Origin: Sclerotinia nivalis
Taxonomy: Eukaryota; Ascomycota; Leotiomycetes; Helotiales; Sclerotiniaceae
Assembly (NCBI GenBank): GCA_029531795.1
Contig: JAPEIS010000008.1
Span: 992,001-1,056,000 of the forward strand
Length of the DNA stretch: 64,000 nucleotides
Direction of reading: 5' to 3'
Shown here: positions 3,840-50,398 of the stretch, piece after piece
Position numbering within the stretch: position 1 is the stretch's first letter
How the letters are laid out: the number at the start of each line of letters is the position of its first letter
Position numbers and translations under genes: made by a program
Notes under the pieces: model-generated
What the model was told of the DNA's origin: nothing
The model's database searches: none
The model's input: only the letters and a program-made list of their open reading frames with translations

Positions 3840-4574
3840 ATGTCAACTACTAGCAAGGACTCTAATGTGGCCGTGCATGGCTCTGTCACCTCCGAGTTAG
3901 TTCATACTCTTTCTTGCATTGTCTCTTATTTTGTTATCAATTGCATGAGTCCCACATGCAATGTCAGACTTAGAGACTTTGCACTTATCATAGATGACAA
4001 GATTCAGAAACCAAGCTCAGACTACGGTCTCTAGCCTTGTGCTTGCTGATCTCATCAATCTATGCTACTGTCTCGACTTCAAGTGTTGTAGATATACGTG
4101 GACATGTTGTACCTCTTCCTCTTTCCCCACTTCCAAAGGTGTCTCTCCTTCGCCATGCGTACTTCTTTAGATCATTTCAGTTCTTCATGAACCTTCGATT
4201 TTGCTTCAACATCTCTCCATCCTTTGTCACACAACAATCTCCATAACTCGTTCACTTCTTGTCAAAAGTTTTTTTTAATAGATCATCAGTCTAACATTAT
4301 CACTCTACTCAGTACAAAGAACTCATCCTATTCCACTTCACTTGAGTCTTCCTCGATCCGCTCCACCACCACCGATTCATCATCTCCCCATGCATATAGC
4401 ATCCAACACTATATTGCAGACGATGTCCATTATGTCCCATACAAATCTACCGCCAACGCTACATATAGCCGTCACACTCAGGTCGTTACAGCAGCTGTGG
4501 CAGGATATCGAATGGGTATCAAATTGCAGGAGTTTGACACAAAATTCCACACTGGCGCTAGTGGTAGTGGGTAA
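3840..4574 (+). CDS. Small two-exon family protein, copy A (105 aa)
   Basis: Exon 1 is 3840-3895, the intron 3896-4312 (417 bp), and exon 2 4313-4574. The splice is phase 2 and rejoins the frame that runs to the stop at 4572. The N-terminal box (MSTTSKDSNVAVHGSVTS) matches copies B and D closely. A Ser/Thr-rich linker (about residues 20-45) follows, then a C-terminal box with Ile-Gln-x-Tyr-Ile-Ala-Asp (49-55), Val-Pro-Tyr (60-62) and AVAGYRMGIKLQEFD (80-94). It has no signal peptide, membrane segment or cysteine. The donor GTTAGT is weaker than the GTAAGT/GTGAGT of its paralogues; with the intron retained the frame runs on to 4034 and would give a 64-aa protein. I recognise no known family. 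The splice model rests on agreement among four copies. Confidence 0.75.
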
Positions 4575-5221
4575 AGCCTGAGAGGAATAGATCCTCAATT
4601 TGCATTTCAATCCTGTTTGACAGGTGATCAGAGTGGTGGGGCCGTTGGGCGCGCTGGCGAACGAGGACGAAAGGATCAAAGTAGTAGGAGATGGGTATGA
4701 GATTCGGTCTGGAGGCTCCTTGGTGTTCGTGTTATAATAAAAATTTTACTTTCAAATAATGATATATTTACGGCATAGAACAAATGTCATGTTGACCCCT
4801 ATACACATGTATATTCAACAGTTAAGTGCCAGGTAAAACTTTGTGTTTAGGGTCATTGCACAGCCTAGCCGGCTGGGACCAGACTCCTGCGTGGAAAATA
4901 GCTTTCGGTATACAATCAATCTATAACCGCATCCGCACGCATATCGTGTATTAATTAAAAGTGATATATGTGTGAGCATAAGAAGGGTAGCTACTAAGCA
5001 TAAAGCCAACCTTGCATTCCTCCCAATTCGTATCATTTAGATAGAGCATTTGCATTGTTTCACCTCGCACCATGTGCAGAATTGTAAGTTGGGTGCAAAA
5101 CTCGAATTCTTACTAGGCTGACGAGCATGGACTTAGGGATTTAATATCTCAACGATCTCAATCTTTGTAGGCTATGGGTATCATTTTTAGATGCCTTGCA
5201 TCTCGGAACACTGATGTGGTG
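4575..5221. other. Intergenic, no gene seen
   Basis: AT-rich DNA. The minus-strand frame 4380-4679 overlapping this edge is the antisense shadow of copy A exon 2. Confidence 0.5.
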
Positions 5222-5678
5222 AGAGCACCAGTGATGGGAGTAGTATGAACTAATATTATGGAGGCTGATATTGAAGCACTTAATATTACATCAATACATT
5301 TAAATTATGATATTATGTACTGTAATATGAATATACCTTAATATGCGCTATTATTCATGTACGGAATCACTGGAATTCGATATTTTATTTCTGAATTTTG
5401 ACTAATGTCAATCATGTTCTTTTGAAACCTATCGAGTCCTAAGAAATATAGTTTCAATATTGTTTATTTCGGATTTAGTTCATTGAATTCCAGTATGGTA
5501 TCTATATAAACAATGGTATATAAAATTTTATACAATACTTAATAATATCAGTGATATGAAATTTAATGTCATGTATTTTGATATATCCAAAAATGCACCA
5601 CGTTTTATTGTAATTAGAGAAATAGGAATTACGCTATACACTACCCCCATCACTGGAGGGCACTTGAGTTAGTGCTCT
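5222..5678. mobile_element. Degenerate MITE-like fold-back element
   Basis: The left end (5228-5247) and the reverse complement of the right end (5636-5656) share a core of about 20 bases, CCAGTGATGGGRGTAGT, differing by A/G transitions. An outer AGAGCAC also occurs at both ends, with 16 extra bases between it and the core on the right. The interior is very AT-rich and has no coding frame. The size of about 457 bp is close to the clear MITE at 38749-39229, but the termini differ in sequence. Transitions between the arms fit repeat-induced point mutation. Family and target duplication cannot be fixed. Confidence 0.5.
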
Positions 5679-6724
5679 TAGAGAATAGTTGAACAATCTC
5701 CACTTGAAAATCTATATGGGTTAGCGTAGGAGCCCACTCCTAAATAAACATTCAGCGGGTCACCTCCCTATATATTTAGCGAGTAGCATTTACCACTAGA
5801 TATATCTTTTGCCATCTGTCACAACCTAAAACCCTATTACTTCGCCCCTCGAATCTTCTAAATAACTATAAACCGATTCGTGTCAGGCTACTAGACTGGC
5901 AACATAATAAAGTGAATCACACTCGCCAAATAACGTGCATTTAGGACGGCGAAAGTGGGTCTTTTGGAACGTCTAGTGGCTGAGCTTCCAATGGGACGGT
6001 CTTCACATGCGGAGATATTAGATGGAGGTCCAGTTTTTTTGAGAAATAAACAATAACTACGGCCCATTGATTGGAATCCTTGTACATTAATTGTATGACG
6101 TTTACTACTCTCTCGAAATAAGTCGATAAGATGAGAATAGTTCATCGTATGACATTACCAAGTACATTTGAATTTCAACTTAAGCCTCGTCGCATGGTAC
6201 CGTCCAGAGAACTCGTTGCGAGGGAATGGACTAACACTGCTGCCATTTATTAGACGCGCTCTTGAGATTCGTCTGCTGCAGACTGAGAACTATAGTTTGC
6301 CATGAACTAGACCTTGCAAAATGGAATAGCTCCAAGGGGACAGGTCGGATTTGAATTCAGATATTGAAGAGGCTCATGAAGTATCTAAGCCAGGGAGATC
6401 ATTTCGTTGTCGAACTCTAATCCAGACATTGAATCAATAGCTAGCCAGAAAGATCACTCCATTCTCAAATGCAGATACAAACATTAAAAAATTGCTTAAG
6501 AGAAACAAGAGGGAACTTTATGACATGAAGAGTACGGAATAGCACTTGCTTAGTTATCTCTTAAAAATACCAGCATTATGGTAGCACCTTTACCAGGTAT
6601 GCAGAAGTCGCCAACTTAAATATTGGGAACAAACTATCCATCATTTGTACTTTCGCTCACCACAACGCTTTACCTAAACAAACATTATTTCAGATTCTAT
6701 AAAAGATTTACACAACGCCAAACT
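5679..6724. other. Intergenic, no gene seen
   Basis: Only short frames without motifs occur here. The plus-strand frames that begin near 6623 run into the antisense of the SDR gene. Confidence 0.5.
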
Positions 6725-7667
6725 TTACGTGCTAAAACATTGGCCACCATTTGCACTGACAACACTACCGGTCATCCATGCACTCTCTGGACTACAAACC
6801 ATAGCAACAATGCTAGCGATTTCCTCAACATATGCCGGACGACCACCCCATTTCTCGCCCACTGCCTTAACTTCTTCGGTGTCCCACTCACGTACGCCCG
6901 ACAACGGAATCAAAGGACTCCACTGTGCTTGCGCTGCAAGCACATCATCGCTACATTGACGGAACATATCAGTGAGCACTGAACCTGGGTTTATAGTGTT
7001 GACCGTGGCGTGTTCAGCCAATTCTCTTGACCAAGTCCTTGTCATAGCCTCAAGCGCACCCTTTGTTCCGTTATAAAGCGTCAAATATGGAGTGCCGACC
7101 TTCTGTCCAATGCTGGAAACGTTCACAATTCTTCCTGATCGATCTGTAGGTAAATATGGCTTGCATGCGCCTGTGAGCAAGATGGGTGCTAGCACGTTGG
7201 TCTCGTATGACTTGATAAAATCCGCATGCGTAACGCTTTCAAGAGGGCCAATGCCTATCATAATAGCAGCGCAGTTGATTAGAATGTCGATTTGGAGCTT
7301 GTTGGTCTTGGTATTCGGAGGCATCTTTGATATACAAGCTTCGATGATGGCGGCACAACCTTCAGGTGTGGAGATATCAGATCGACACGGCACGGCAACT
7401 ACGCCATGTTTCTTAGTAAGCTCTTCCGCGAGCTCAGCAGCAGAGCTGTCTGAGGCTTCGGTTAGATAGCTTATTAGGATGTTAGCACCCTTAGATGCGA
7501 GATTTCGAGCAATTCCAGCGCCAATGCCTAATACCAAGGTTAGTCAATACGTAAAACTTTGGCATGGTTATCAATCCTTATAACATACTTCGTGCTGAAC
7601 CCGTTACAATTGCAACCTTGCCAGCATGCACTCGATTAGTATCCGTGGATTGACCGTTGGAGGACAT
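6725..7667 (-). CDS. Short-chain dehydrogenase/reductase (classical SDR)
   Basis: Two exons on the minus strand: 7589-7667 and 6725-7527, with a 61-bp intron (7528-7588, GTATGT to TTAG); 293 aa. The splice reconstructs the nucleotide-binding Gly motif TGSARSIG (22-29), which is cut by the intron. Other SDR hallmarks are Asn-Cys-Ala-Ala (111-114), Asn137, Ser165 and the catalytic Tyr-Asn-Gly-Thr-Lys (178-182). The family binds NAD(P)H in a Rossmann fold and oxidises or reduces alcohol/carbonyl groups; the substrate cannot be read from sequence. The final residues carry the usual Gly-rich C-terminal element. The start at 7667 follows the longest plausible soluble N-terminus; an upstream in-frame ATG at 7769 would add a hydrophobic leader but is less likely. 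No signal peptide. A cytosolic enzyme is inferred. Confidence 0.9.
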
Positions 7668-9636
7668 TTTGACTATTGGGGAGATCGCTAGAATAATTCT
7701 TAGATGCAGAAGATTTAATGCAGGTGAAACGTTGGAGGTCCTTAAGACAAGCAATGAGAGACAAGGCAAATGAGAGATCCCTTTGGATAAGAGAGGAAAA
7801 CGTCAACCCCCATGTTTGTAGGTCAATGTGCGGAACAACATTGTGAAACATGATAGTGGAGCAAAAGGTTATCAATACCAAGATACATTTGGCAGTTTTT
7901 GGAAATCATCTCCGGCTGGGGAGGGATATTTTGAAAATGACGCAGTTTGACCAATAACAACGATGACTTCCCAGCATTCGGAGTTTCATACTTCCTGGCA
8001 GCAAGAGTAGAGTACCTAACATACAAAGATTTCTCCACAATAAAAACTTTGTGGTCTCGGATTTCTCTCCTGTGGGTCATTATTTTGTCATGAATCTAAC
8101 CCTTTTTGATATGCTAATATATTTTTGAATAAAATGATTTCGATGATTTTTTACCTTTTCCATTCTGTTACTGTCATTCAAAGATTTGATCTGTATTTTA
8201 AGGTTTTTCAGTTTTTGAAAAATAAAAATAACTTCGGGCAGAGGATGTCTAATTTCCAACCTGATTTAGTATTATGACAGTTTTATAATGATATTGTAGA
8301 TCATAAATATAAAACTCATGGAAAAGTTTGGCAAAGATCAGAATAATTTTATCAAAATCATTGTTGGAAAGCCTCTGGTGTGGTGGAACGTAGGTAACAT
8401 AACAGTAAGATAATGAGGTTATCCACGAGTAGTTGCACCTCTATGAGGCCAGCAAAAGTCTGCGCAATTGACAACCTTAAATAAAAAGGTTATATTGCGG
8501 ATAGAGATGAGATCGAAGATGACGGCTTTACATAGGCCGTCGCTTAGGGTGAGTGCACGTGCATCGAGGCACGTATAAGCAACCCACAATCATAAATCCC
8601 ACCGTATTAGAAATCTAATGTTTGTTGCAAAAATAAAAAGTGGAATAGCACTCCACAAATGATACAGAAATTGATAATACTCGTGTGGCCACACAGTATG
8701 GAACACATTCCTATACAGGCTTAGATTTTGCAAGTAGGGCTAAACGAGGTATCAAAGAGGTATAGATTCGGTAGATCTATACTAGATATAGTAAAGTTCT
8801 TGAAGCAGATTTTGAATATAAGCGAATATTTTACTGTACTTGTTTTTCTGTGCAAATCTCCGGTTGAAGAAGAGGAATTGTGAGAAACAATCGATTCCAT
8901 TGGCCCGAGTGACAAGTCTCCAATGTGGATGCAGTATAGAGTTCACAGATGAAGTTGGAGCTTAAGGCTTGAAGATTTCCTTGGAAAACCTTAAGTTGCA
9001 GATACAAATCTGAAAACTGCACTGGATGCTCCAGCCTCCATAAGATGCGCCAAGCTAATCAAGTTAAATGAGTCGTGAATAGCGAGCAGATGGAAGTATT
9101 GCGAGCTCTGTTTTCAGCCTTCATTTATATACCTGGTATATAGCAAGAAGATTTATACCTGCAAGTAGGCTTTAGTGCCTTTTGAACTAATAATAATGCC
9201 GGTTGAAAGATTAATAATAACGCAGGAGTTCATGGGTCATTCATTCAGGGTTTAAATACCTTGGTAACATTGACACTTCGATCCATTTTGTCCATATGCA
9301 GTGGGGCGGTGGGGCAGCAAGAAACAATGGAGGGTGGGACTAAGTCCCATTCTTAACCGATTGCTGGAGGAAGAACACTCTCGAATTCCACGAACAGGGT
9401 CTTCCCACGCGGAAGCGAGAGTCCGGTCTCTAGAATCGGAATAAACTTGGAAGATCAATGGATCAAAAACGTTCACCCCGGACTCTAGGGAGAAAAAAAA
9501 ACCCTGGACCAGCCTCTAGTTCTGGGTACTCCTTCAGAATCTGAAGAGGTACATTATGTCGCTGTCCACAGATTTAGCGATGCATTTCTTCACGAATGAT
9601 ACGCTGCCTTACAAATAAAGTCCACTCGACGCAAAT
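7668..9636. other. Intergenic, no gene seen
   Basis: AT-rich DNA holding only short frames on both strands, none with recognisable domains or convincing splice partners. Confidence 0.5.
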
Positions 9637-10967
9637 ATGGCTGACGCAGACGCTACTATCCTTCCTCTTGAAAGTTTCCCTCTAATAATATTCGTCGTAT
9701 CTATCGTCGGTCTTTTTTTCTCAACAATCACTGTAGCAGTGAGAACGTATGTCAGAATTCAAGAAAATGCATTTGGCTGGGACGATAAGTTGATAGCACT
9801 GGGGTTGGTATGGCCTTCTCTTCAACCTTTGATTACCAATGATATTAACCCTCATAGATGGTTTTCATCGTCGATGTCAGCCTAGCTTGTCATGGCACTC
9901 GAGTCGGCCTCGGTTCACACAACGGCAGACTAAACGCATACTTCGAGGTACAAGGAACGAAATACCTAATGCTCTGGATGATGTTGTATGTCTTAGGTCT
10001 TGCAATTATCAAAAGCTCCATTTGTGTGACTCTCTTGCGTATTGCTAGCTCGCAAAAGATATACCGGCTTTTTGTATTGGGCTTACTTACTCTCACCATC
10101 GCCACCTTCTTGGTGACTTTCATTGGTATCCTACTTCTATGTAGACCTGTGGCTGCAAATTGGGATACGTCATTGGTGGCAGAAGGAAAGGGGACGTGTT
10201 CGGGCATGGGCACAATGATTGCATTGAGTTATACCTCGACAGCCTGTACGATTGTGACAGACATGGCTTGTGCGGTGTTCCCGGGCGTGATGCTATATAG
10301 GACGCAAATGCCATTGGGAAGGAAGATATCTGTGGGCCTGCTTCTGTCCTTTGCTTCTGTGTAAGCCCAATTTCCATCCTCTACTTGTCTGATGTAGCTA
10401 ACCAGAGTGTTCACCCAGTGCTTCGATATCCACCATGATCCGTTCACCGTACATCGAACACTATCGCAACCCAACAGACAACCTGCTCTGTAAGATATCC
10501 TGCAGACTTGCTTTTCTGATAACAGCACTTACACCTCCCTAGACTATACCGGCTTCATCGTTCTCCTATCCAATGTAGAAACCGCCATTGGCTGCGTAGT
10601 AAGCTCAATTCCAACAGTCGGTCGCTTTGTTATTCGCAACAGAGCTAAGAAAAGTTCCGCTTCGAGGTCGCAAGGCCCCAAGGATATTGTCACATATGGC
10701 AGCGCACCGATCAGTGGTCGACATAATGCCAAAGGCCGAGTGTTCCGCAATCCTACCGACGCCGGCACGACATTCACTACAGTCCACGCATACGGAGATG
10801 GAGATTGGAGCAGGCTGCACGACGCGGATTCCGATCACAACCCGAATCTAGATTCTGAGCACGGGATTCGCGCAGATGATACTTATCAGGTGGAATTGTC
10901 AAAGTCGCCAAAACATACCCAGTCGGAATCTGTCAGGGAGCTAGCTAATGATGGCTCTTCGCATTAG
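9637..10967 (+). CDS. PTH11-like / fungal rhodopsin-fold integral membrane protein
   Basis: Four exons: 9637-9807, 9858-10360, 10419-10489 and 10543-10967, with introns of 50, 58 and 53 bp; 389 aa. The N-terminus has a membrane helix after a short outer segment, then Arg-Thr-Tyr-Val-Arg and Trp-Asp-Asp-Lys, the hallmark first-loop motif of the fungal rhodopsin-like domain. Further helices include about 80-110 with Gly-Thr-Arg-x-Gly-Leu-Gly after helix 2, and helices with Lys-Ser-Ser-Ile-Cys. The cytosolic tail (about 270-389) is hydrophilic and rich in Ser/Asp. No CFEM domain precedes the helices. In this family PTH11 of Magnaporthe senses host surfaces; most members are uncharacterised. Every splice keeps frame and restores a continuous hydrophobic profile. 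A role as a plasma-membrane sensor is inferred. Confidence 0.88.
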
Positions 10968-12027
10968 TGGAAGAAGGAACCCCTTTTTGTTTTTTCCTTG
11001 TGTTCTTTTAACGAACAAAAGCTTATATGGTCGTCATTTTCGACACAGAGTGTCCAATATTCTGGACTGCCGGGCTAAGTGTGGAGATTTTTCCAGTGTT
11101 TGAGCAGCTTGAACATGGGAAATTTGTAGAGATTTGGTTATAATTCAATCAACATATTTAATACCGCTTTCTATCGTATTATTTAAGCCAGTGTAGGCAG
11201 GGTGATATCGGTTGTAAGGCTACACGGGATAAGAATTTTCCAAATATGGAAAGGCTATGATAAGATGATATCATGATCATATTTGTAGTATCATCTTTAT
11301 AATTCTTCCAGGAGGACAAGTTAAATCAGACTTCTCCAAGGCCGGACAGGATAGGCAGAATTTTCAGGATATGGGAGTTTCATTCTAGACTTGGGATAAA
11401 AGAGGAAAAGGATAAGAGAAGATGTTGAATACGCTGAATTCAATGTTCTTAATTTATCCACTGCCTCATAGAATTGGTTTCTCATAAGGTTCAACAATCA
11501 AAAGCCTCTTGTGGGACTGAAATCTATGCTATTGGATACACCGTTTGGAAGTAGCGGAAGATCGATATCTACTTCGTTTATAAAGATGGGAAGAGACTAT
11601 ACTATTATAAGACTTGTTTCCAGGTTATATGAATAAAGGCTCCGGCGTTACTAATTCTACTTACTCAAGCACTGGCAAGAGAATGTATCAGCGTAGTCAA
11701 GGTGACCATCTACCTAGATACTTTATACACTAATATCGTATCTTTTCTCATGATACCTATGCTAGACTCCTAGAGTCTTAATGATTAATGTTAGCTACTC
11801 CTGAAATTAGCGAATAATTAGAACGAATGTATTCTTGAAGGACATCTTCTACATCTAAACTGTACATAATACCTCTAACTATGGCCTAAAAGTATGATCT
11901 AAACCTAAATTTCCTACCTTCATTCTCTTGTTATATTCTCAGTCTACCCTTCTACTTCCACCTCTCTATGTCTATACCCTCTATTGCAATTATCCACTAA
12001 CAGCTTGGATTCTCAGGCCATCCTCCT
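10968..12027. other. Intergenic between convergent genes, no gene seen
   Basis: This is the 3' flank of the membrane-protein gene and of the carrier gene. The sequence is AT-rich without long frames; a pyrimidine-rich stretch at 11930-12020 borders the carrier stop codon. Confidence 0.5.
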
Positions 12028-13023
12028 CTAAATCAAAATCTCACTCTGCACTCTATCCTTAACACCAGCAGAAATTCCTCCTTTAGCCCCTAACTCCCTC
12101 ATAATCCACTCATACGCTGCCCACTGCGCCGCATTCACAATAAAAGCCCTCAGACTACATACTCCCAGTCCTCTGAAAAACACACCCATGCCTTCATTGC
12201 GATATGCAAGTTTTGCTATTTCTAGCGCTCCTTTTCGTTTTTGTGGAGATCCCAGAAGCAGGGGTGACGTTTCTGAAACTGATGTAGACGGGAGAATTTG
12301 CGCTTGAAGTCGTGTCTTCACCACATCAAGGGGGAAAACACTAGCCCATGTTATAACACCAGCTACACCTCCGCAAAGGAGAATTTTGATTGCTTCGTTT
12401 CGAGAACTTGTGTCATTCTCCAGTCCTTGTGAGACTGAAGATGGAGGAAGAAAATAGGAAGAATAAAGACGAGAAGATAATTCATAACTCCAGAAATAAA
12501 ATCCATATCCTATACTGTCCCTCAAAGCGGTAACCACACCTCCAAAGTACAAGCCTTTAACTCCAGTCGTAGATAAGATGGAGCGAGCGATGGTTAGGGA
12601 AGAGAGAGGGGGACTGGACAGCTGAGTGCGACATTTTATTAATTCGGTGGGGGTGGAAATAATGGAGGAACAAAGACCGCCAATCGTGCCGGCTAGAAAT
12701 GTCGAGGAGAGGGGTATGGATTCTGGGTGGTTGGGGGTGTAGGCGGGGTGGAGGAAAGAGAGGGTACGGTTGTAGGTTACAAAGAGGAGGGCGTTTAGAG
12801 CACCGGTTGTGAGGATTGGGGCTGCGGTTCCACGGACAAGCGAGCTAGGGGTGGCGACAGCGGTGGTTGGTGGACTTGATGTGGTAGGATTGAGACTTTG
12901 AGAGAGGCCATTCCCACGTGATGATCTTGAGGCTTGAAGACGAACTTTGAGAAGGTCGAGAGGATTGCCGATGATAATACTGATGGCACCGCTGATATAG
13001 CCAGCCCAGAAATCGGCGGACAT
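12028..13023 (-). CDS. Mitochondrial carrier family (SLC25) transporter
   Basis: A single exon of 331 aa with the tripartite SLC25 layout. The three signature motifs are Pro-Leu-Asp-Leu-Leu-Lys (21-26), Pro-Thr-Glu-Leu-Ile-Lys (125-130) and Pro-Leu-Asp-Val-Val-Lys (231-236). The first and third are followed by Arg-Leu-Gln. Gly-x-Phe-Phe-Arg-Gly-Leu and Arg-Ala-Phe-Ile-Val-Asn-Ala lie in the last repeat. Six inner-membrane helices are expected. The Arg-Ala-Phe-x-Val-Asn motif resembles the carnitine/basic amino-acid branch (SLC25A20/A29/A45 type), but the substrate is inference. A Ser/Thr/Pro-rich stretch (about 32-60) after the first motif is longer than in typical members. The start is the first ATG, followed directly by the first helix. 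Confidence 0.92.
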   Translation of the reverse strand: MSADFWAGYISGAISIIIGNPLDLLKVRLQASRSSRGNGLSQSLNPTTSSPPTTAVATPSSLVRGTAAPILTTGALNALLFVTYNRTLSFLHPAYTPNHPESIPLSSTFLAGTIGGLCSSIISTPTELIKCRTQLSSPPLSSLTIARSILSTTGVKGLYFGGVVTALRDSIGYGFYFWSYELSSRLYSSYFLPPSSVSQGLENDTSSRNEAIKILLCGGVAGVITWASVFPLDVVKTRLQAQILPSTSVSETSPLLLGSPQKRKGALEIAKLAYRNEGMGVFFRGLGVCSLRAFIVNAAQWAAYEWIMRELGAKGGISAGVKDRVQSEILI

Positions 13024-30808: not shown

Positions 30809-31710
<902 letters not shown>

Positions 31711-35246: not shown

Positions 35247-35748
35247 TTAAGCTCCTCCCTGACCATAGAATGTTGCATCAAACTGTTGCAATTTGAGGCT
35301 CATTCTGTGCGCCGCAGCCAAAGTTCTCTCCAAGTTACCGCCGTCATGGTGAGTCGGCGAGGCGTATGGGACCGGACAATCATTTTCGGCGAGATAGCGT
35401 TCAATACGATGAGCGGAGAAGCCTTTGGCTTCGGTGGAGGAGGTATTGTATGAAGGATGGTCTGAAGTGTTGTTTGTGCTAGAGGAAAGAAGAAGATGTT
35501 AGAGCTGGATACTATGAAGATACAACAAAGCGGTCGAAGAGGTTAAGGTGAAGCGCAGAGGGCGCGTCAGGATGAGGTCAGAGAAAGAGTCGGTCGGATG
35601 GTAGAAAAGAAAGAAATACCAAGCAACGACATGGTAAGTCAAAGCCTGGTACAATCGAGTACGCGAAGCAAGAAGAGGAACTGTCGACTTACTCGGAAGT
35701 CACAGAGCCTTGTACGGCAATGCGAGAGCTTTTACTGGTGTTCGACAT
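35247..35748 (-). CDS. Small two-exon family protein, copy B (95 aa)
   Basis: Minus strand: exon 1 35693-35748, intron 35479-35692 (214 bp, GTAAGT to CTCTAG), exon 2 35247-35478; phase 2. The N-terminal box MSNTSKSSRIAVQGSVTS matches copy A at 13 of 18 positions. The Ser/Thr/Asn linker starts Thr-Asn-Asn-Thr-Ser, exactly as in copy C. The C-terminal box reads Arg-Ile-Glu-Arg-Tyr-Leu-Ala (43-49), Val-Pro-Tyr-Ala (55-58) and HRMSLKLQQFDATFYG (76-91). The antisense frame on the plus strand (35244-35453) is an artefact; it resembles the antisense frame of copy A, which is how the homology first shows. This is the most compact copy, with the best splice sites and a TATA-like run upstream, so it is probably the best-preserved. 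Function unknown. Confidence 0.8.
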
Positions 35749-37088: not shown

Positions 37089-38748
37089 CGCGTTTTTTCC
37101 ATACACAGGGGTAAATCAAATAAGTCAATAAATCAAATAAATCAAGTTGAGTCGCTCGAAGATCAGACCCACATAGTTTGGCGATTTTCAATCTACGGAT
37201 TATCCATGAACTATACTCAACCGTGGAATAATATTTCTACCAGGCATGCACGTCTTATACGTTGGGCTGAAAGGTGCCATCTTTCATACATGAAAATTAC
37301 AATCACCGGTAATAGATTGTATCCGTAGCCATGGATTTCCGGGATTTCCAAGCGAGAAATCTAGATCTAGAAAGCCACGAGAACTGGATAAAATGATGGT
37401 ATACCGTATATGGACAATCATCAATCCTTAAAGGCGGTGTGGCTTTTATTATGATTACATGATCGTGTTATGTTTCAGCGTCGACTTACCTGCCCAGGGT
37501 TTGAGCCGATTAGCTTTCGCTCCATCATAATAATGTTACACTCAAAATCCAAGTTGAGGCTCCGCATTTCAATGCTGTCCTGACCACGAGTAATAAGATT
37601 TAATGCCAAGTTATTTCACGCCTAGTATCGTGATTCAAAACTGCCACGGCGAATGTTTTTACCCCAACTCTAAATTCAATTAATTTATTTTATTCAGCTC
37701 AGGGCTTTGCCTTCTTTGCCTCTTGCCCTTTCTAGTTTTTCAAGACTGTATGAAAGTCTGATCCTAATGAGATCTTTTTTTATTAAAAAAGCGTCATATA
37801 TCTGGTCTTGGACAACACTTGTCGGTTCGCTTGCCGCTATGTCAGCCTAAGAGCTTCCATCATTAGCTGACTGTACAGCATCTAACTTAATAATTCAAGG
37901 GAGTTCTTTTTTCCTTGTTTAATTCATTTCTGTATAGAGTTTCGAATAGCCCGGAGTAGCAGATTAGATGTGAGCTTTCCAAGTTGTTTGAGTATTTCGA
38001 GGGATTTAGATGTGCTAATTGGTCCCAATGTTTGAAAGTCTGCTGCTGTTGGACCGCAGTCCGGACTATTGGACTCATTCTTTGTGCATTAGATTTATCC
38101 TTCATCCCCAGCACTTGGCGAAGAGCGTCGCTGAAGTCACTCATTTTGGTGTAACGATCTCTCCACTATTCACACCTCAACCCCGTGCATCAAAGTATCC
38201 ATGCGACTGGATTGATTTCATAATCATTTGGGTGCCATCTGAACTTCGAAGGACAAATGAATATGAGAGACAATACGCTCGTTGACGCACTTTTTGTCTA
38301 GCCGAGTATCCTCCTTTACTAACTACGTCCTACATTTTGTGTCGCGTTGCATCCCAAGAGAACACTTTATGGGCTATCAGGGCTTAATGAAAGGCAACCT
38401 GGTTATTACTTCAAGAAGCATCCTGAAAGCCACAGTTCGTCTATGTTCCCGTCCTCTCATGTTGTGAACGACGTCTAGATCCACCCATAGTGGGTCTGAA
38501 CTGCATGAACGGGGTGGGGAACAGCCGTCTTGTGTAGTTCCTGTGGAGAAAGAACTGTCGGATCGAGCCACACTCGCGTAACTGAACATTGATTAATTGC
38601 TGATCATCCTTGCCCTGGCTATTCTTTGCATGGGCTAGTTAGTTCCAACTTTGTTGAACATGCAGCACTGCAAGGTATCCACATCCACTAAGTAAATAAG
38701 TATATAAAGAGCTACCACCTAATAACTTATCTCTTTAGAAGAACCATA

Positions 38749-39229
38749 ACGTAACTTGACTAGAAGTGGGTCATGTCATAATATGGGTCAGGTACCTTTA
38801 CACCAAATTTTGTATATAAAGGTACTTAGAGCGACTTTTTATATCTCTAGAAATACTAGAGATATAGTTTCAATATTTTGAAGTATGATATATTCAATAT
38901 AAATATTTAATATGACAAAGTATTATACAGAGACGAAAATGTTTAATAAAAATATTAAAGTTTCTTTCAAATTTTCAATTTTGCCTAACAAAAATTACTA
39001 TGGGAATTTTTTAAATCGTATTAATTCAAGAACAAGATTCTCAACAATTGTTTTATAACTTGAATACTGTATTTCTATTAGATATTAAACCAAATTATCA
39101 AAGGTTTAAATTTTATCTTTAATATTTGTAGAGTTATAAAAAGCCACTCTAAGTACCTTTACATACAAAATTTGGTGTAAAGGTACCTGACCCATATCAT
39201 GACATGACCCACTTCTAGTCAAGTTACGT
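38749..39229. mobile_element. 481-bp MITE with 95-bp terminal inverted repeats
   Basis: The left 95 bases (38749-38843) match the reverse complement of the right 95 bases (39135-39229) with only about four differences, all transitions. The ends start ACGTAACTTGACTAGAAGTG. The element is flanked by TA on both sides (38747-38748 and 39230-39231), the target duplication of Tc1/mariner-type transposons. The interior is extremely AT-rich and has no frame, so it is non-autonomous. The highly similar arms suggest recent activity or gene conversion; the transitions fit mild RIP. Confidence 0.9.
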
Positions 39230-39294
39230 TAGTCCATACATCTCGAATTCAAATCGAACGTGTACATATCCAATTTTTTTCATTAACCTCAAAA

Positions 39295-40496: not shown

Positions 40497-41476
40497 TCAA
40501 TGCTTCCCATAATCTCCCCACCGACTTTTCAAATCATCATACTCCTCATCTTCTAATCCCAACTTCCTATTAACCATTCTCTCCACCCTCTTAACTAACC
40601 TATCCTCTTCCGCCTCCGTACCATCCCAAGCCGCTTCACCCATAACCCCTGGATCTTTTACACTGAAAAGCTCTTCGGGACCATCTTCCACTACCTTATG
40701 AAACCCGGTATAAATCGCCTTTGTGAACTTTTCCGCTTGGGCTTTTCCCCTCTCATCATAATCTCTAGTTCGAATAACGCGACGTTTGCGATCACGAGAG
40801 ACGTGGTTTAAGCGAGCGTAGGCCCAATCATCAGGGCAATCGATATAGAAACCTTTTGGAAGCCAGAGTCGTAGCCAGTTGATGAACGTTACGAAGACGG
40901 AATCTTTGGTGGTGGTTTTACAGTCGTCGGGGTTTTTCTGTGCGGGTATACATGGTGAGATTTTGGTGGAGGGGGTGAATGGTGCATGGGGAGATTAACT
41001 TACGATGGACTCGACTTTGCTGAGTTCAAACCCTAAAATTGTGTATACACTCCACTGATATGCATCTATTAGTGTCGTTTTTGAAGATACATATGTGTGA
41101 GAGAAACACTTACCAAAGCAGCATGACGATAAATCATATCAATAGTTTGGCAAGGTGGCATGTGAATCACACCAATGAGCCCATGCGACTTGGCGCTTCT
41201 GAAGTAAACTCCATTTCTGTTATGGGCTCTGCCATTTTGATCAAACCACACAGCAGGGCAATTAACTGTTCCATTTGAGACTCTGACACCTCCATCTCTG
41301 TCATAAGCAACAAGTGCAAGTCGTTCATCGTGATCCTTCTTTTCGTCAAGTCGATAGAAGTGTAGTTCAGTTGGGTGAGATAGCTCGTGGATGTGTTTTG
41401 ACATATTTCGGAATAATCGCGTAGTGATAATCTGGTTTGGAAAACTATGGAAATTTTGCAAAGAGGATACCTCCAC
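40497..41476 (-). CDS. Uncharacterised 284-aa protein
   Basis: Three exons on the minus strand: 41114-41476, 41004-41054 and 40497-40937; introns of 59 and 66 bp, both phase 0. The start could be the ATG at 41476 or the in-frame ATG at 41404 (260 aa); the latter has a more natural soluble start (MSKHIHELSHPTELHFYRLD). The first part has alternating beta-like segments with Leu-Val-Ala-Tyr-Asp-Arg-Asp-Gly-Gly and Trp-Phe-Asp-Gln-Asn-Gly. The 17-codon middle exon (WSVYTILGFELSKVESI) links to a Trp-rich segment with Phe-Ile-Asn-Trp-Leu-Arg-Leu-Trp-Leu-Pro. The C-terminus is charged, with Arg-Trp-Gly-Asp-Tyr-Gly-Lys-His. No signal or membrane helix is seen. I do not recognise it. The clean splice sites and continuous composition argue for a real gene. 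Confidence 0.7.
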
Positions 41477-43738
41477 ATAAATAGGTGAAAATTTGCGGTC
41501 GTGCTGACGTGGGGGCGCAAAATAAAGGTTTATTGCAGGGTATAGGGGTTCTTCATAAAGTCTTTGGCGCTTTCCTAAGCCTTTAGTTGGACAGCAAACC
41601 AGCTGCGCATGGCAAGGTAATTGAGCAATGATCGCAATACTATGAGATTTAATTCGCTGAATTGGTTACTCTCCAGCGGTGTGGAACAAGAGGTTGCAGC
41701 AAATATGATGCAAACGGGTGTTTAGACACAATGGAGAGCATGAGACCTGCACCTAGACGAGCCAGCTAAGGACCGGATCAATGGATTATCGGGATTTTTT
41801 GCTGAATAATCTCATGGGAATAAATCATTATGATCTCAAGACAAGACCCGCCGACCTACCTACGTAAATGTAAGGTCTCTCTAATGTCCTGTACGATACA
41901 ATCCACGTCCACCGAGCACACCCGACAAAATTCTTTCGATATACATTTCATTGGCCAAACTAACCATGCCTATCCGCAAAAATTACTGGATGGAAGCCTT
42001 TTGATTGTTATCCTAGCATTGATGCCTTCCCTATGATGAACCCAACATATCAGACAATTGAACTCATGCATCCACAATGTCAAACATACTGTAAGATATT
42101 GTCGTACTAACAACCAAACATATGAGACTAGATCTTGATGCTCATCTCGGATCAAATTTCAGCATGTAGCTGGTCAACATAAAACAAGTAGTCTGCACCA
42201 CTTAGGGCGGTTTTCGAGCCAATGGACCGTTCAGCATGAAGACTTTGCCTCCATCGACCTTACAAATTCGATGATGTGATTCGACAGATCTTCACTCGAG
42301 GTCTGGAAATACAACATTAAAATGTTAGTGGTCACTAAGAGAGCACTAAGCCACGACCCAGAGGATAAGATCATTCTTTGCCGGTAATAACGCGGACGAA
42401 CCAAACGCACGGACTTAGATTAGTAACAATAGGCTATCTAAGCTGATCAACACATTCGCCTCGCTAACAACGGCATTTTGCTATAGTATCTTCCGAGTTT
42501 TCGGCAAAGCAGTACACTGCTGATATCTCCGTGCAGGGTGAGCAAAGCTCTAGGTCTACCACCGGCTGGCTGCAAGGGTCCGAATCTATCGGGGTAGAAA
42601 ATAGATGGATGTGATTTGATTAAAAGAATGGCTAGGGTAAATGAGCCACCCTTTGGCACTGGAACTAAACCAAGTTTAGGCCCATGGATGGGATTTGATA
42701 AAATCGCTCCTTCTACTTTTGTAATGCCCCTCAAAATCAAAGCAGACAGCTAGCTTCCTGAATGTTAGAGTACTGTAGAGTAAATACTATATAAGATTGT
42801 ATATCGATAATGATTATAGGAAGTAATATTATATAAATCGATACATCTCATTAAGTAAAATGATTAAAGATAATTTTAACTTTGAAGACAACACAGCCAA
42901 ACCTTGAAAAAAAAAACAGATCAGTTTCAATAATCTTTTATGGAAAAATTTATCAAATCTTTTCTCGGAAAGATTCGTTATTTGCAAGGACAGCGGTGAA
43001 GCGAGAGTGATGAAGGAGGGAAGGTAATGGTTTGTTTCTGCTTACCTTTCTATTCATAAATCATCCATGTCCATGTCTATTGACGCAAGCCAAAGTACCG
43101 GTACACCCTGTGGCATGTGAAAGTGCTTTGGATGGATACGATCAGAAAAGGCTCTACACAGGCACGTGCCATAAGTTGGTACAGTACCCCGACACAATGA
43201 GCCTTTTCCGGGATTAAAAAATATCCATTTCAAACGATTCCTCCAATCAAATTGAAATAACCTTATTTGAAATAGGCTTAGTGTTTGTTGCAGCGCTTAC
43301 CGTTAATGCTGAGCCCCACGTTAAAATCTCAACACCGGCAGCAGAAGCACCCGGAAACTATGTATGTGGGGAGCCCGTCGCGTTTCGGTACGAGAGCGTC
43401 GGGATCAATCAAAAATCTTGGCTTCTTTCTACTTAAGGCTTTACTTTACGTGGGGTTTATATTTCACATAATCATGGGTCCTATTGGTTGTTTGAGTCTG
43501 GTTCGCAAAAATCACCCTTTGCCTCGTCCTTCCTAACCTCGCACTTCAGACAAAGTAGGATGATGGTAGCAATCATGTATAAGAACTGTTGCATCCTCGA
43601 GATTATTTTCCAATTGCATCTTTCCCTATATCATTTTATTGTCTTTTCGGCGCCTTCGACCCTACGATCACGTGCATCATCAATTCTTGCAATATCATAT
43701 ATCCTTTTCCATATTAAAACCCCATCTCGTTCACCATC
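41477..43738. other. Intergenic, possible decayed gene at 42202-42740 (-)
   Basis: On the minus strand a 97-codon frame (42447-42740) and a downstream piece ending Gly-Gly-Lys-Val-Phe-Met-Leu-Asn-Gly-Pro-Leu-Ala-Arg-Lys (stop at 42202) look protein-like. They are in different frames and no intron joins them convincingly. I see no family match. Confidence 0.35.
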
Positions 43739-44439
43739 ATGGCTAGCCAATCCTCCAATGTTATTTTAAAAGACTCTGCTACCTCTTCGTAAGCAAAAAC
43801 TCTATTTATTTTCCTCCATCTCTTATAAGTATTATGCGACTCTGAGAGAACGAACTTTCTTCCCCATTACCTTCTGTTCAACAACAAATTTTGATTTACT
43901 CCTCTTGCCAGTCCACAACATACTATTCTCCCCTTCCGCCTTCTTTTTCTTTTATATCCTGGCCTAATAATCTTTATATCCTTACCGCTTTCATTTCTTC
44001 ACTCTGACTTCCACCTTTGTCTTCGCTTTCTCCCATTTATCTCTTGTCTGATTCCATCACCTTCTCCAACGATTCATTAATTCTATGAATCTATTCCTGT
44101 CGCGTCGCTTCAACATATTCTGACCGTTATCTCTCCTCGTCTAGCACAAACAATACCTCATCCCAGCCCCTTTCATCCACAAGATCCGCAGAATCACGAA
44201 GAATTACTGCCTTTCGCATCCAAAGTTACCTTGCCGATCCAGATACCTCTGTTCCATTCGCAACCACAGTCAATACTACCAGATCCGGTGGTCACAAACA
44301 GCTCAGTAGAGTCGCGGTCGCCGGGTACAGGATGGGTACTATTCTGAAGGAGTTCTATGAGGCTTTTGGTGGTAATGCGGCCCAGAATGATGGCGATGAT
44401 AACCACGCTTCCAATGAGAGAAATAGCACTAGCTCTTAA
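43739..44439 (+). CDS. Small two-exon family protein, copy C (114 aa)
   Basis: Exon 1 43739-43788, intron 43789-44144 (356 bp, GTAAGC to TCTAG), exon 2 44145-44439; phase 2. The N-terminal box MASQSSNVILKDSATS is the most diverged of the four. Exon 2 starts Thr-Asn-Asn-Thr-Ser-Ser as in copy B. The C-terminal box has Phe-Arg-Ile-Gln-Ser-Tyr-Leu-Ala-Asp (40-48), Val-Pro-Phe-Ala (53-56) and AVAGYRMGTILKEFYEAFGG (74-93). A unique acidic Asn/Ser-rich tail (94-114) follows. The minus-strand frame 44194-44406 is its antisense shadow. Like the other copies it has no signal peptide, cysteine pattern or membrane segment. Function unknown. Confidence 0.78.
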
Positions 44440-44970
44440 ATCCCTTGGATAGATGGTGTATTGGTTGAAAGCTTGGGTGTTTAAGGGAACGCGACCACAA
44501 GAACTATAAGGCAGTCGGATGGAGTAAGGAGATCACTTGATGAACTGATGACTCGATGAATAACTTTCGATTCTTTGGCAACAATTATGGGGTATATCTT
44601 TGAGTGTGGGTTGGCATGCCCTGGATGGTGTACGTTAGAGGAGAAATTAATTTCGTTGACAAACAATTCAAAGCTTCTCCTTTTAATTCTCGCTTAAGCT
44701 TTTGTGAGATGTCTATTGTTGAACAGGTTCGAATCTCTTTAACTAGTTGTAGATCATGTAACAATTATGCAATAAGTGATACTCATAAAACGATGGGACC
44801 AAAAACCGTCAAAAGGCAACGTACGGAGGTTGATGGAGGAAGTATTGTAAGACACATCAAAAAATGACCGTGTTTGTTCCACAAACAGGGGTTCTGACCA
44901 ATAATATTATCATGCTGATTGAAAATTTGTATGGTGAAATCTAAATTTCAAGAATTACTAGCAAAATCAT

Positions 44971-45248
44971 TCAAAATCATCAAAATTCTTATTTTTTTAA
45001 TTGGAATTTTATTTCAGATTTATTCTAAATCTATTAAAAGTATCATGGCATGGGATAGGGCCTTAGGTAATACGATGATATTCTACGAAGGAGGAAAGAA
45101 GGTGCTAGGAGGGGCACCGACTATATAGGGGTGGATGCCTGAGGCATCCAGACTAGCTAGGAATGGGTTGTGAACCCGTGACAAAAAGTTTTAAAATCAT
45201 CAAATTTGTTGAAATTCTATTGGAAACTTTGAAAATCATCAAAATTCG
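44971..45248. repeat. Three short direct repeats of AAAATCATCAAAWTT
   Basis: Near-identical words occur at 44971-44988, 45191-45207 and 45229-45248, flanking the first copy of the dispersed repeat at 45063-45181. Confidence 0.6.
45063..45181 (+). repeat. Dispersed repeat, copy 1
   Basis: About 119 bp beginning near ATGATATTCTACGAAGGAGG and ending near GGGTTGTGAACCCGTGAC. It recurs in the same orientation at 46622-46742 with about 80 percent identity by eye; most differences are transitions. Confidence 0.75.
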
Positions 45249-46621
45249 AAATTTGAAGGGAGAACAGTTTTTAGTATCTATTTGAGTTCTTTAAAGCAGC
45301 ATCAAAAGATAGGAAAACCAGCAATATGTGGGTAAAAAATGTCTTACATTACTTACCTATTCAACCTCCGTCCAGAATTGCGTCTTTGATTGATTGATTG
45401 TACTTCCTCGATAAATCTCTACTCTACTATAGCTAAGCACTTCATTCCATAGCATCTTTAATTTATAATCAATAAATTAACCATACAACCCCCCTCTAGA
45501 AGTGGGGTGGGCGGAATGGGATAATTTGTTTTATTTATCTCCCTCTCTTCCCTGTATAGTTTATAGTTTATAGTTTATAGTTTTTTGATGTGTTTATGTT
45601 TTGGGTTTGAAGATCTTTCTTCCTTGTGATTTGCAGGCCTCCTGGTCGTGTATTCGATAATGCGAAGTGGTGCTATGAAATTACGTATGCAATACCGAAG
45701 CTTGGGGCACTTTAAGATGGTATACAGTGAACTAAATGTTTCACCTGTTGAAAACCAAAATGAGGCTTAAAGAAATTTCTTTTACTCTTTATTGCGAACG
45801 TGCGATATTTCACTCCTCTACCCCGAGGTTTAAGTGAAACCTTAAGATTCAGGAGCCAAAATTATACAGAAGTAAACAAAACATACACTTTGATCTGGAT
45901 ATTCCTTCAATCACTGTATCTGAAATCTTGAAGACATTCGAGTATCATGATCTCGCATATGGAGTTGATGTCTGCTCTAAACCGTTCGAGGTTTCGGACA
46001 GAACATGTGATCGTCCGATGTTATCATCCAGAGTTGAAACTATCCTCAACCCACATTGATCAACTAGAATTATCGGATAATTATGTCAGAGGATATTGTG
46101 AGCATATTATCAGGATTTTTAATATTCCTCGATCAATATCACATCTCCATCAAATATGCAACCTCACGTGCTAAATGCCCGGCGGTACCCTGGCACACAG
46201 GATAGTGATCCTACCCCGTGAAGGTAAGGTGCAACGAAATGTAAAAGTTGGTGATAGCTTTGTTAGATTTTTATCGGAGAAAATGATATCGGAGATAACG
46301 AAAAGGTGATAACTTTAGTAGTGTCCTCCAAGCGGTGACCAGACAAGGTTATCGATATACAAACAAATGCGACTCGTGGGCGATACAGGTAGGTGGGTAT
46401 GGAGCGCTCGATACAACTGCTTACTAATTAAGATTGGGGCTGAGAAGTGGGGCACAACCTACGCTCAACATCCTTGATCTGAACCCAGAGTAGGTGTGAA
46501 GAGTGTTGGTTCCATTTTCGTACGACTATGCATTTTCCACTAAAGTCTCACCCGCTATATTATACCCCTAATAGCATCCTACGTATTGGAAAAGATGTAT
46601 CACAGTAGAGATAGGTTGCTT

Positions 46622-46742
46622 AATAATGTAATGATATTCTACGAAGGAGGGAAGAAGATGCTAGGAAGAATACCGATTATATAGGGAATGGATGCTTAAG
46701 GCATCTGTGCAGATTAGCTAGGAACGGGTTATGAACCTGTGA
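46622..46742 (+). repeat. Dispersed repeat, copy 2
   Basis: It matches copy 1 through ATGATATTCTACGAAGGAGG, GCTAGGAA, a GATTATATAGG-like stretch, GGCATC, TTAGCTAGGAA and GGGTTATGAACCTGTGA. Two direct copies about 1.56 kb apart could be long terminal repeats of a degraded element, but the space between them has no coding frame. Confidence 0.75.
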
Positions 46743-46877
46743 TAAGATGGATGGTGTATAAGCCGAGAAACCGTTACCTATCCATACTGCAAGAAAGATA
46801 TTCCCTTTGTTGTGGTAAGGTTACGTGCTGAAAGTGTAATGCGATTGTTAGTACACATGATTCATTGATACAGCCAG

Positions 46878-47193
46878 CATCCTAAAAAGCCTACGGGGTT
46901 TTTCACCCAAGGAGCTAATCAGAGCTCCAGGCACTATCACTAGATGGTGCCTTTTAATGTGTACATTGGGTTACCACCCCACTCGGACGGGGAGGCACTA
47001 AGTGACAGGTCGCTAGGACCACATACCTTGTATTCTAGGTAGGATATGCTGGGGACTTTATGTACATAATACCTTAGCTTAGCACGCCCCACATACCCTT
47101 CGGGAGGTTAGTGGACGCGAAGTGAAGATTCAGTAGCTTCGCGCTCACCGGGCGCAAACCAAATTCACTTCACTTCACATCCTAAAAAGCCTA
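46878..47193. repeat. 16-bp direct repeats flanking 284 bp
   Basis: CATCCTAAAAAGCCTA occurs at 46878-46893 and again exactly at 47178-47193. The 284 bp between are GC-richer than the surroundings and contain a short hairpin (CGCGAAGTGAAG with CTTCGCG). The 16-bp copies could be a target-site duplication of a non-LTR or SINE-like insertion, but no A-box/B-box or A-rich tail is obvious. Confidence 0.6.
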
Positions 47194-49554
47194 GGGCCTT
47201 ACAGGATATTAGCACTATAATACGCTGTAACTCAGTCTATCAAATCGATTTATAAAACTTAATACTGAATTAAACCTAAAAAAGTTTATTGAAACCCTAT
47301 AATTTCATTCAATTGGAACTAGAATTAATTGATAAAAATAAACATTTCTTGTTACAAGTTTTTCCGAATTCTTTATACGTTAATCTTTATTGGATTTCTT
47401 AACACTAATTAGGTGGTTCAAATGTATGATTACAGACCTCTTATAATGTTAAGATTGTGTAAAACCCTGTAGTCGTATTCATACTCGAGGCGTCCTCCGT
47501 GACATCTTCATCATCTGCTAGAATGTAATGCACAAGGGAAAGTGGAGGGGTGAACGATCACGGTAAGTAACCGAATGGAGGGTGTGGTGACTCGTGAGGG
47601 AGTGAGCGGCGGGACCCATCCCTCCTCTTAGGGGCACTGGACATTTGGCGCACGCAAAATTCTAGAATCCGGCTGAAAAAGGTTCCAAAAAATGGAGCAA
47701 TTCTAGTTCATAATGTTATAACACAATCCTATTGGTGCAAGTCTGTTGATGAAGTGACGATTTGGTCACCGAAGTGATCACCCCTTTATCTACGATAAGA
47801 GGGTACCAGCAATTCGTCGGTTTTAGATATAATTTCACAATTAGAACAAATATTTAAATTCTGAGTACATTATCAATTAATTTAATGTTCTTATTATTTT
47901 ACTATATCTTCAATATCCACGATTGTGAAATTGAAAAAAAATGATGATATTCGTTGGGGGTTTTCCTCACCCAGAATTAAAACTGGCGAATTGCTGAAGT
48001 CCCCTCATTGGTATAATGGGAGGTGGATGAAAGTAACCCCCGATGCACAGTGACCAGAAAGTTAACTTTAAATGAAGGCATTGCTGATACCAATGTCAAA
48101 GTCTGCGATAATGATTTAGAATGTTCCTTAGCCACTAACCGACATTCCATTAGGAGATTCAAGATAGTTTATATCTCGGATTTATTTTATTCCTAAGAAC
48201 TCTCTAGAATAGGGAACCGCACTCTCCTGAGGAGGGCTCCATTCTTTGCCGTTACTGCATATGTAGTACTTTTTTTGTTTTTATTTTTGAGTTCAATATC
48301 CTTGTCCTTGTGTCCGAACGATGAGCTAAGCTTTGGGGCTCGTTCCGGGAGAGACTCGGGGGTGAGTTTATTTCTCGGGTGTCGAGGTGGGGTTGTTGGT
48401 CGGTGTTCGTCTTGGCTCTTGGCTCTTGGCGCTTTTTGGTACTTTTTCTTCCTAGCTAAATACCTACTTTTCTGACTTTACATGTATAAAAGTATCCATT
48501 TTGTAAATTCTCCTAATCATATGTATTTTTTAGCTTCCCCAGCCTTGGACTAATGAGGTTAAGTAGAATTCCAATTTCTTATGATGCATCTGATTTTTTG
48601 ACAATGAAGAAAATGTCCAGTACAGTGGGTTATGAACGGTATAGGTAATAAAGTACATACATGATAAATAACATATGGGAATAAACAGTATAGGTGAATA
48701 AAACTATTTCAAACACCAAATTATTTTTCAGGATAATTTTGTAGATGTTGTGTAGTGGTTCGTATGTCTATATATGATGATATATTCTTTACAGCTTTGA
48801 TGGGAGTTTGTGATGATAAAATCCTTGTGAATAAAATCCCATGTTAATCGAAAGAAGCTTCGCACACAAGGAAGGGCTTTGGATATTGGTTGTTAGGGAT
48901 AATGAGGCCATTAACTCCCTCTATTGAATCTAATAATGTGCCAGGTTCATTAATATGATGCTAAATTGATTCTCAAAGATGAAGAAAGGAGAACGACGAT
49001 GATAAATATCTAATAACTCGATGTCTTGAAATCTAGAGATTTACTAGGTTTATCGTTACGCGTTGTTAAGTATCGTTAAGTTAACCTTTATACTTTATCA
49101 GCCATTTACATCTTTTTCTTATCTATTTTGTAGAACAATGTAGGGATCATTGGAGATGAGCAACGGCCGAAAACTCACTGGCTGCAGGCGTAAACAGGTT
49201 GCTTGCTAGGTTGGTGGTTTCGCGACCAATAAAGCAAGGTTTATTTTCAATGCCGATGAGATGACCCGCATTTGATGACCAATTATGGTATCGGGTAGCA
49301 CAATGTTGCAAGGTGAATACATTTTGAGGTTGTTACAGTTGGTAAAAGTGATCTTTAGAAGGCTTAAACTGAATCTCAGGAAAATTTTAATTCTCAAGAA
49401 ACTATATATATGACTCCCTCTTTCTTCCTCAATGGTCCATATCCTCCATCTTTCATCCCCTCAAGTCCATTGTCTACTAGAATTTTCGCATTCCATCTCA
49501 ATTCTCTCAAATATATATACTCACCACGTACAAATCCCGTGTAACAGCATCATC

Positions 49555-50398
49555 ATGTCAAGCCAAACTTCCAACATTGCCGTACAAGGCTCCATCACCT
49601 CTGAGTGAGTTCATACTCTTCATTTGTCTCCTTGAATCCTTCTTTCAAAAGCATCTTCTCTTTCATATTATTCCTCACATTCCATTTTCTTTTATCCCTC
49701 ATCCACTGCCCACTACCACCACACACTATTTCTTCTCGTTTTGCTTTGTATATGCATCGCGGTCCTGTTACTACTCCCTCTCCCGCTTTTTTTCTCTCTT
49801 CTACATCCAGATCTTTTCTCATCGGATCATCTGTCTTATTTAATGCTCAATTCCTAAGTCCATCATCTACCTGATAAGGCCTTTCATCCGCACTCACCCG
49901 TCTTTTGCGCTCTTATTCTTCTTCGACGGCCACCCGTGCTTCTTTTTTTAACAACGCTTCTACCCTCTGCCTTCTCTTTCTCTCATCCTCTTTCGATTTC
50001 TCTTTCGCCACCTGCTTCTGTCATACATTACCCTCGGAATCCTCTCATCATCCCTAACACATGTCATCCATTCTTTCTTTCATACATAATATTCAATCTT
50101 CTCTCCTACTTGCTTCCAGTTATTAACCAATCCGTACTGACATGCTTCCTTCACACTCAGTCACAACTACACTTCCACTCCCACTTCCACTTCTCAAACA
50201 TCCATCATCAAACAATCTCACCTCTCAGCCAATCGCATCCAAACCTACCTCAATCACCCTCATCACTCTACCACCTATGCATCACCCACCCAAACCTACA
50301 ATAATCAAGCATCAGTCACCCAACACTATACGACCGCTGCTGCCAAAAGCATCCAGGAGTTCGATGATGCTTTTTACGGCAATACCCGCAATCATTAA
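49555..50398 (+). CDS. Small two-exon family protein, copy D (95 aa)
   Basis: Exon 1 49555-49604, intron 49605-50160 (556 bp, GTGAGT to CTCAG), exon 2 50161-50398; phase 2. The N-terminal box MSSQTSNIAVQGSITS is close to copies A and B. The first 15 intron bases (GTGAGTTCATACTCT) match those of copy A (GTTAGTTCATACTCT), so the intron is homologous too. The linker is Ser/Thr/Pro-rich. The C-terminal box has Asn-Arg-Ile-Gln-Thr-Tyr-Leu (41-47), Thr-Thr-Tyr-Ala-Ser-Pro-Thr (54-60) and AAAKSIQEFDDAFYG (76-90). It lacks the Gly-Tyr-Arg-Met part seen in A and C. The intron and promoter are extremely pyrimidine-rich. Function unknown. Confidence 0.75.

Follow-up and report, generated by a model that had tools for sequence, protein, structure and literature searches.

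An old, apparently undescribed family of small two-exon genes in Sclerotinia nivalis and related Sclerotiniaceae

Gene structure of copies A-D

The window analysed here, a stretch of 64,000 nucleotides (nt) from contig JAPEIS010000008.1 of Sclerotinia nivalis, contains four small genes, copies A-D, which prove to be genuine members of a gene family that is old and, apparently, undescribed. Each gene consists of a first exon of 50-56 nt, a single phase-2 intron and a second exon of 232-295 nt. Spliced models and branch points confirmed what the original prediction had read from the DNA, namely four loci that share one phase-2 intron and encode proteins of 95-114 amino acids (aa), and the frame is indeed rejoined by splicing in every copy, giving proteins of 105 aa (A), 95 aa (B), 114 aa (C) and 95 aa (D). 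In window coordinates, the genes are laid out as follows.

3840-4574, + strand: copy A, whole gene
3840-3895, +: copy A exon 1, encoding the N-terminal box; the protein is deposited P0004 (OCU04_007528)
3896-4312, +: copy A intron, 417 nt, phase 2, donor GTTAGT, branch point CTAAC
4313-4574, +: copy A exon 2 with stop, encoding the Ser/Thr linker, box 1 and box 2
35247-35748, - strand: copy B, whole gene
35693-35748, -: copy B exon 1
35479-35692, -: copy B intron, 214 nt, phase 2, donor GTAAGT, branch point CTAAC
35247-35478, -: copy B exon 2 with stop; 92% identity to Stromatinia cepivora P0003
43739-44439, + strand: copy C, whole gene
43739-43788, +: copy C exon 1; the protein is deposited P0002 (OCU04_007543)
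43789-44144, +: copy C intron, 356 nt, phase 2, donor GTAAGC, branch point CTGAC
44145-44439, +: copy C exon 2 with stop
49555-50398, + strand: copy D, whole gene
49555-49604, +: copy D exon 1; deposited OCU04_007545 begins farther upstream, in frame
49605-50160, +: copy D intron, 556 nt, phase 2, donor GTGAGT, branch point CTGAC
50161-50398, +: copy D exon 2 with stop

All four introns are pyrimidine-rich on the coding strand (0.63-0.73) and carry a CTAAC or CTGAC branch-point motif close upstream of the acceptor. Models A and C are identical, letter for letter, to the deposited S. nivalis proteins P0004 and P0002, and model D corresponds to the last 95 of the 136 residues of a third, P0001. 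The model of copy A is the least certain, with 64 in-frame GT..AG models possible, five of which use the originally predicted donor; the originally predicted acceptor was chosen for three reasons: exon 2 then opens with the S-D-T-x-N found in B, a CTAAC branch point precedes the site and the deposited S. nivalis model agrees. The proposed sequence motifs stood only in part: V-P-Y-A is exact in B alone, being VPYK in A, VPFA in C and TTYA in D, and Y-R-M is found in A and C but reads H-R-M in B and is absent from D.

Family membership and further copies

A profile that drew on 24 Botrytis proteins, and on nothing from the S. nivalis genome, was run on the six-frame pieces of the window, the reversed window serving as the control. 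The four best matches were the second exons of B (E = 3.8e-26), D (4.6e-26), C (2.1e-21) and A (3.2e-10), followed at ranks five to eight by the first exons of D (0.00083), B (0.025), A (0.16) and C (0.24). Since the best match in the reversed window reached 0.12, only the first exon of D is clear of the control, and the first exons of A and C are not distinct on their own.

The S. nivalis genome (50.3 Mb) was then searched with each of A-D, copy E, three Botrytis proteins and copy G, an approach in which copy counts are lower bounds. At least six copies were found, so that the family is larger than the four members first proposed: besides A-D there are two on another contig (C9), namely E and a degenerate copy, G.

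C9 438627-439299, - strand: copy E, 97 aa, phase-2 donor as in A-D, intron of 379 nt
C9 from 442777, + strand: copy G, first exon and donor as in the family, second exon degenerate, several in-frame acceptor models
Window 47807-51447 (outer limits; no strand assigned): four pieces, apart from one another, that resemble the surroundings of copy E on C9; an old segmental duplication, interrupted

In the genome search, exon 2 of E was matched by the D query (1.5e-17, 61%), and a weak match was also seen at C13:740033-740233 (E = 0.477). Exon 2 of G matches a profile built without G weakly (5.9e-5) and lacks the F-D-x-x-F end. A first exon of 50-56 nt with a phase-2 donor at the same codon is present in all six copies (the acceptor of G is uncertain), and exon 2 matches other family members in each: in A-D by the Botrytis-only profile, in E by the D query and in G weakly. 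D and E lie in an old segmental duplication, the shared pieces of which are in reverse order on C9 and 67-78% identical. A small open frame beside D (51234-51713, -) has a counterpart beside E on C9, with 33-34 residue pieces alike and no Pfam match. Repeat fragments at 44822-46745, possibly transposon remnants, are common to the C9 region of E and G.

Distribution, age and selection

Three overlapping protein database searches (25, 45 and 16 rows) yielded 48 distinct relatives, every one named Sclerotinia, Stromatinia, Botrytis or Botryotinia and thus within the NCBI family Sclerotiniaceae. These searches required shared five-letter words and annotated proteins, so that absence from Monilinia and other fungi is not implied. 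Judged by these matches, the family has been found so far only in the fungi of white mould and grey mould and in close relatives of these, and the original suggestion of lineage specificity holds at the level of the family. The relatives are deposited hypothetical proteins (OCU04_007528, sscle_12g090670, BTUL_0049g00300 and others), with orthologues of A, B, C, D/E and F among them, and functional names are absent from all 48 entries. Both boxes are kept in these related species.

A tree was built from 45 rows, comprising 42 of the 48 relatives (three of them trimmed) together with B, E and G; P0037, P0039, P0041, P0042, P0044 and P0046 were left out. Groups B (support 95/89), C (100/99) and D/E (100/98) each contain Botrytis and Sclerotinia members, and a group F/G was recovered at 98/91, in which the branch of G is long and its placement unsure. 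Group A (100/99) holds Sclerotinia and Stromatinia members only, with no Botrytis among the matches. Copy E clusters with Botrytis D-like genes at 93/79, below the support mark, and the deep joins among groups are weak or lie between long branches. On this tree, groups B, C, D/E and F/G are older than the split between Sclerotinia and Botrytis. The B. fragariae genes of E-type, F, C and B have the locus numbers 003045, 003046, 003047 (assigned by sequence, outside the tree) and 003053, and by these numbers the cluster itself is old.

The recent expansion that had been suggested is therefore rejected, since the proportion of synonymous differences (pS) among A-D is 0.70-0.78, near or at saturation, and Botrytis orthologues exist for B, C, D/E and F. 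Within A-E, D-E is the only well measurable pair, with a synonymous rate (dS) of 0.46, a nonsynonymous rate (dN) of 0.23 and a ratio of 0.49, which is not near 1; the other nine pairs have a pS of 0.70-0.79 and a dN of 0.50-0.83.

A conserved block at the 5′ splice site

For most pairs of distant copies, the strongest DNA likeness covers about 42 nt, from -26 to +16 around the 5′ splice site of the intron.

3870-3911, + strand: copy A block (-26 to +16)
49579-49620, + strand: copy D block (-26 to +16)
35677-35718, - strand: copy B block, exon part (-26 to -1) kept, intron part (+7 to +16) out of register
43763-43804, + strand: copy C block, the weakest, 0.50-0.54 identity to the others in -26 to -1

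Identity is 86% over 42 nt between A and D and 84% over 57 nt between D and G. At intron positions +7 to +16, a stretch picked after the data had been seen, the mean pairwise identity of the six copies is 5.9 of 10 versus 2.9 in random interior stretches of the same introns, and none of 20,000 random draws reached the observed value. A, D, E and G are alike up to +16 (10/10 between A and D at +7 to +16), and the mean identity over all pairs falls to 0.30 at +17 to +46. Across the whole genome, a 33-nt junction pattern with up to three mismatches found A, B, D and G only (C and E are too divergent), and an 18-nt pattern with up to one mismatch found A, D and E only, with zero hits in both controls; as the patterns were derived from the copies, it is the absence of other sites that is informative. 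In nine of the ten pairs of A-E, D-E being the exception, the last 11 codons of exon 1 show less synonymous difference than exon 2 does, a comparison based on only 8.5-9.8 sites per pair. The conservation of the block suggests that the junction is a place of additional control, exerted through splicing or through some other step at the RNA or DNA level.

There is, nonetheless, a substantial chance, if somewhat short of even, that the block contains no RNA or DNA element and that its likeness stems instead from gene conversion among the copies or from constraint on the coding of the N-terminal box. Exon 1 encodes a conserved box, so its DNA is partly constrained in any case, and patchy conversion would fit the finding that in -26 to -1 D is closer to G (0.88) than to E (0.69), even though E is its near paralogue elsewhere. 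The block is also poorly shared by B in its intron part and by C in both parts, and the lack of register at +7 to +16 in B and the partial likeness in C count against a splice-site element. On the other hand, the likeness in A, D, E and G reaches +16 and then drops, for which conversion tracts would need to stop at nearly one position in several copies. A bolder proposal, that the block is a family-specific RNA element steering the splicing of the long first intron, perhaps through the family's own product, and letting the gene make either a short peptide or the full adaptor, strikes us as very improbable. Retention of the intron would bring an immediate stop after the N-terminal box in five of the six copies (not in A), leaving a peptide of 17-19 residues that is one of the best-kept parts of the protein, but this stop is no evidence for a switch because a GTAAG or GTGAG donor produces one in every phase-2 intron.

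An Rfam search of the six introns gave no match, and the only hit nearby was a tRNA beside copy A, a tRNA-Ser (TGA) at 3035-3124 (-), some 700 nt away. The word TGTTGCA, shared by five of the six upstream regions, was discarded as not significant, since 30 of 300 random sets of window stretches did equally well.

Protein features and known proteins

The proteins of A-E (95-114 aa) contain 23-33% Ser plus Thr, are near neutral with a charge of -3 to +1, lack Trp and have at most one Cys each. Near-constant residues of the family, in the numbering of B, are S8, S15, S24, Y47, F85, D86 and F89. Over 43 sequences, mean column entropy is 1.45 in exon 1, 1.53 in box 1 and 1.57 in box 2 versus 1.97 and 2.30 between them. 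None of the four window proteins passes the curated cut-off of Pfam-A (the best E among 35 members is 0.017) and no relative was found in the PDB, in keeping with the first impression that the proteins contain no known domain. AlphaFold models of low confidence place helices at residues 39-47 and 68-92 of copy C and at 41-49 and 68-90 of a Botrytis B protein, in both cases over the two C-terminal boxes; apart from these two helices, the two modelled proteins are predicted to be mostly unfolded.

Judged by eye, no hydrophobic N-terminal leader is evident in A-E from the conserved Met, the deposited D models being longer. A Cys-rich mature part is lacking in A-E. Such a part is common, though not universal, in classically secreted effector-type proteins.

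No paper on the family was found in the open-access full-text literature (supplements, and hence expression tables, lay outside the search), and as far as that literature goes the family appears, as first thought, to be undescribed. Searches of the same literature under sscle_12g090540, sscle_12g090670 and OCU04_007543 found no paper, and the prefixes sscle_12g0905 and sscle_12g0906 retrieved a neighbouring gene rather than the family. In tag ranges guessed from bhp1, the excerpts retrieved under Bcin02g079 and Bcin02g080 concerned only bhp1 and Bccap1, and Bcin02g078 returned no paper. Broader term searches showed nothing about the family among the titles listed. The IGY small secreted protein family of Marssonina brunnea (PMC4367982) is similar in consisting of lineage-expanded small fungal proteins, but its members are described as secreted and as bearing an N-terminal IGY motif, whereas A-E lack the motif (by eye) and any evident hydrophobic leader. 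The necrosis-inducing small secreted proteins of Sclerotiniaceae (PMC7060139) share the fungal family and the small size but were chosen as secreted, whereas A-E have no evident leader; the two sets are separated here by description, not by sequence.

Neighbouring genes

Pfam-named genes in the window include those for 2EXR, SDR, fungal rhodopsin, mitochondrial carrier, RAD54, SURF6, GPP34, WSC, C2H2, 4Fe-4S and NPP1 proteins. Further features are listed below.

20496 down to about 19950, - strand: hydrophobin-like gene of several exons, whose C..CC..C, C..CC and C pieces fall in three different frames
38747-39231: inverted repeat, 132-nt arms, 90% complementary, 221 nt between
51701-54958, - strand: long open frame with a WSC domain, containing tandem repeats of 99 nt and 186 nt
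59630-60593, - strand: two pieces of an NPP1-domain gene

The first piece of the hydrophobin-like gene has no Pfam match and no full splice model was found for it; its cysteine pattern and position indicate that it is probably the orthologue of BHP1/SsHP1. Bhp1 is Bcin02g07970 (PMC7695001).

Possible functions

We favour, tentatively and at somewhat less than even confidence, the reading that the family encodes non-secreted, intracellular, intrinsically disordered Ser/Thr-rich adaptors or modulators that dock by their C-terminal helices. The N-terminal box and the two-helix end (R-I-x-x-Y ... L-x-x-F-D-x-x-F) would bind a protein partner, the Ser/Thr linker would serve as a regulated, phosphorylated spacer, the paralogues may share out one task among partners or life stages, and a splicing or other RNA- or DNA-level step at the exon-1/5′ splice junction may add control. 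The gene models, the Botrytis-only profile, the deposited models identical to A, C and the end of D, the restriction of all 48 relatives found to Sclerotiniaceae, the old orthologue groups, the D-E ratio of 0.49, the composition, the helices, with a mean predicted local distance difference test score (pLDDT) of 81 at residues 81-90 of the Botrytis B protein, and the conservation peaks in exon 1, box 1 and box 2 all speak for such an adaptor. Several observations weigh against it. AlphaFold confidence is low (mean pLDDT 54 for C and 58 for the Botrytis B protein; predicted template modelling score 0.20 and 0.23). Helix amphipathicity is not clearly above shuffled sequences, fewer than 5% of 5000 shuffles reaching the observed value in only two of 13 segments, so that strong amphipathic helices are unsupported. 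Finally, the N-terminus of D is longer in the database models from S. nivalis and S. trifoliorum.

The adaptor reading has to be set against three others. The proteins might belong to a developmental stage of sclerotia or apothecia, like conidiation-specific proteins, and perhaps be co-expressed with the neighbouring BHP1-type hydrophobin gene. This reading, which we consider rather unlikely, overlaps with that of an adaptor, one saying when the proteins act and the other how. Within the window the hydrophobin-like gene is found between copies A and B, SsHP1 (sscle_12g090620; PMC12655489) is numbered between C (090540) and A (090670) in S. sclerotiorum, Bhp1 is upregulated in one step of fruiting-body (apothecium) development in B. 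cinerea, and Botrytis- or Sclerotiniaceae-specific genes without known function change in its later steps (PMC5821092). The argument is nevertheless one from neighbourhood alone, and the housekeeping genes RAD54, SURF6 and GPP34 are neighbours too. Alternatively, the proteins could be secreted unconventionally or directed to the host, acting outside the fungal cell even though they carry no classical signal peptide. Many Sclerotiniaceae are plant necrotrophs, the relatives were found only in this family, the linker is variable and an NPP1 (necrosis-inducing protein) domain gene lies about 9 kb from D; yet the N-terminus is not evidently hydrophobic, Cys is all but missing from A-E, and the orthologue set is old and stable rather than fast-turning-over; we consider this reading improbable. 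That these are selfish or drive-type genes, spore-killer-like for example, maintained through self-promotion and not function, would suit small clustered genes with no assigned function, a copy A with no Botrytis member among the matches and the presence of E and G on C9, but orthologues have been maintained in two genera at low copy number and we give this idea hardly any credence.

Significance

A clean gene structure is now available for a family in which some deposited models have it wrong. At least four deposited relatives (P0001, P0009, P0016 and P0032) have an extended or replaced N-terminus. The junction presents a testable oddity, in that the DNA at the splice site is alike among several paralogues whose synonymous sites are near-saturated. 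An apparently undescribed, old and multi-copy family is thereby added to the genes that distinguish Sclerotinia and Botrytis from other fungi, and if it acts in sclerotia or apothecia, it would be relevant to the biology of white and grey mould.

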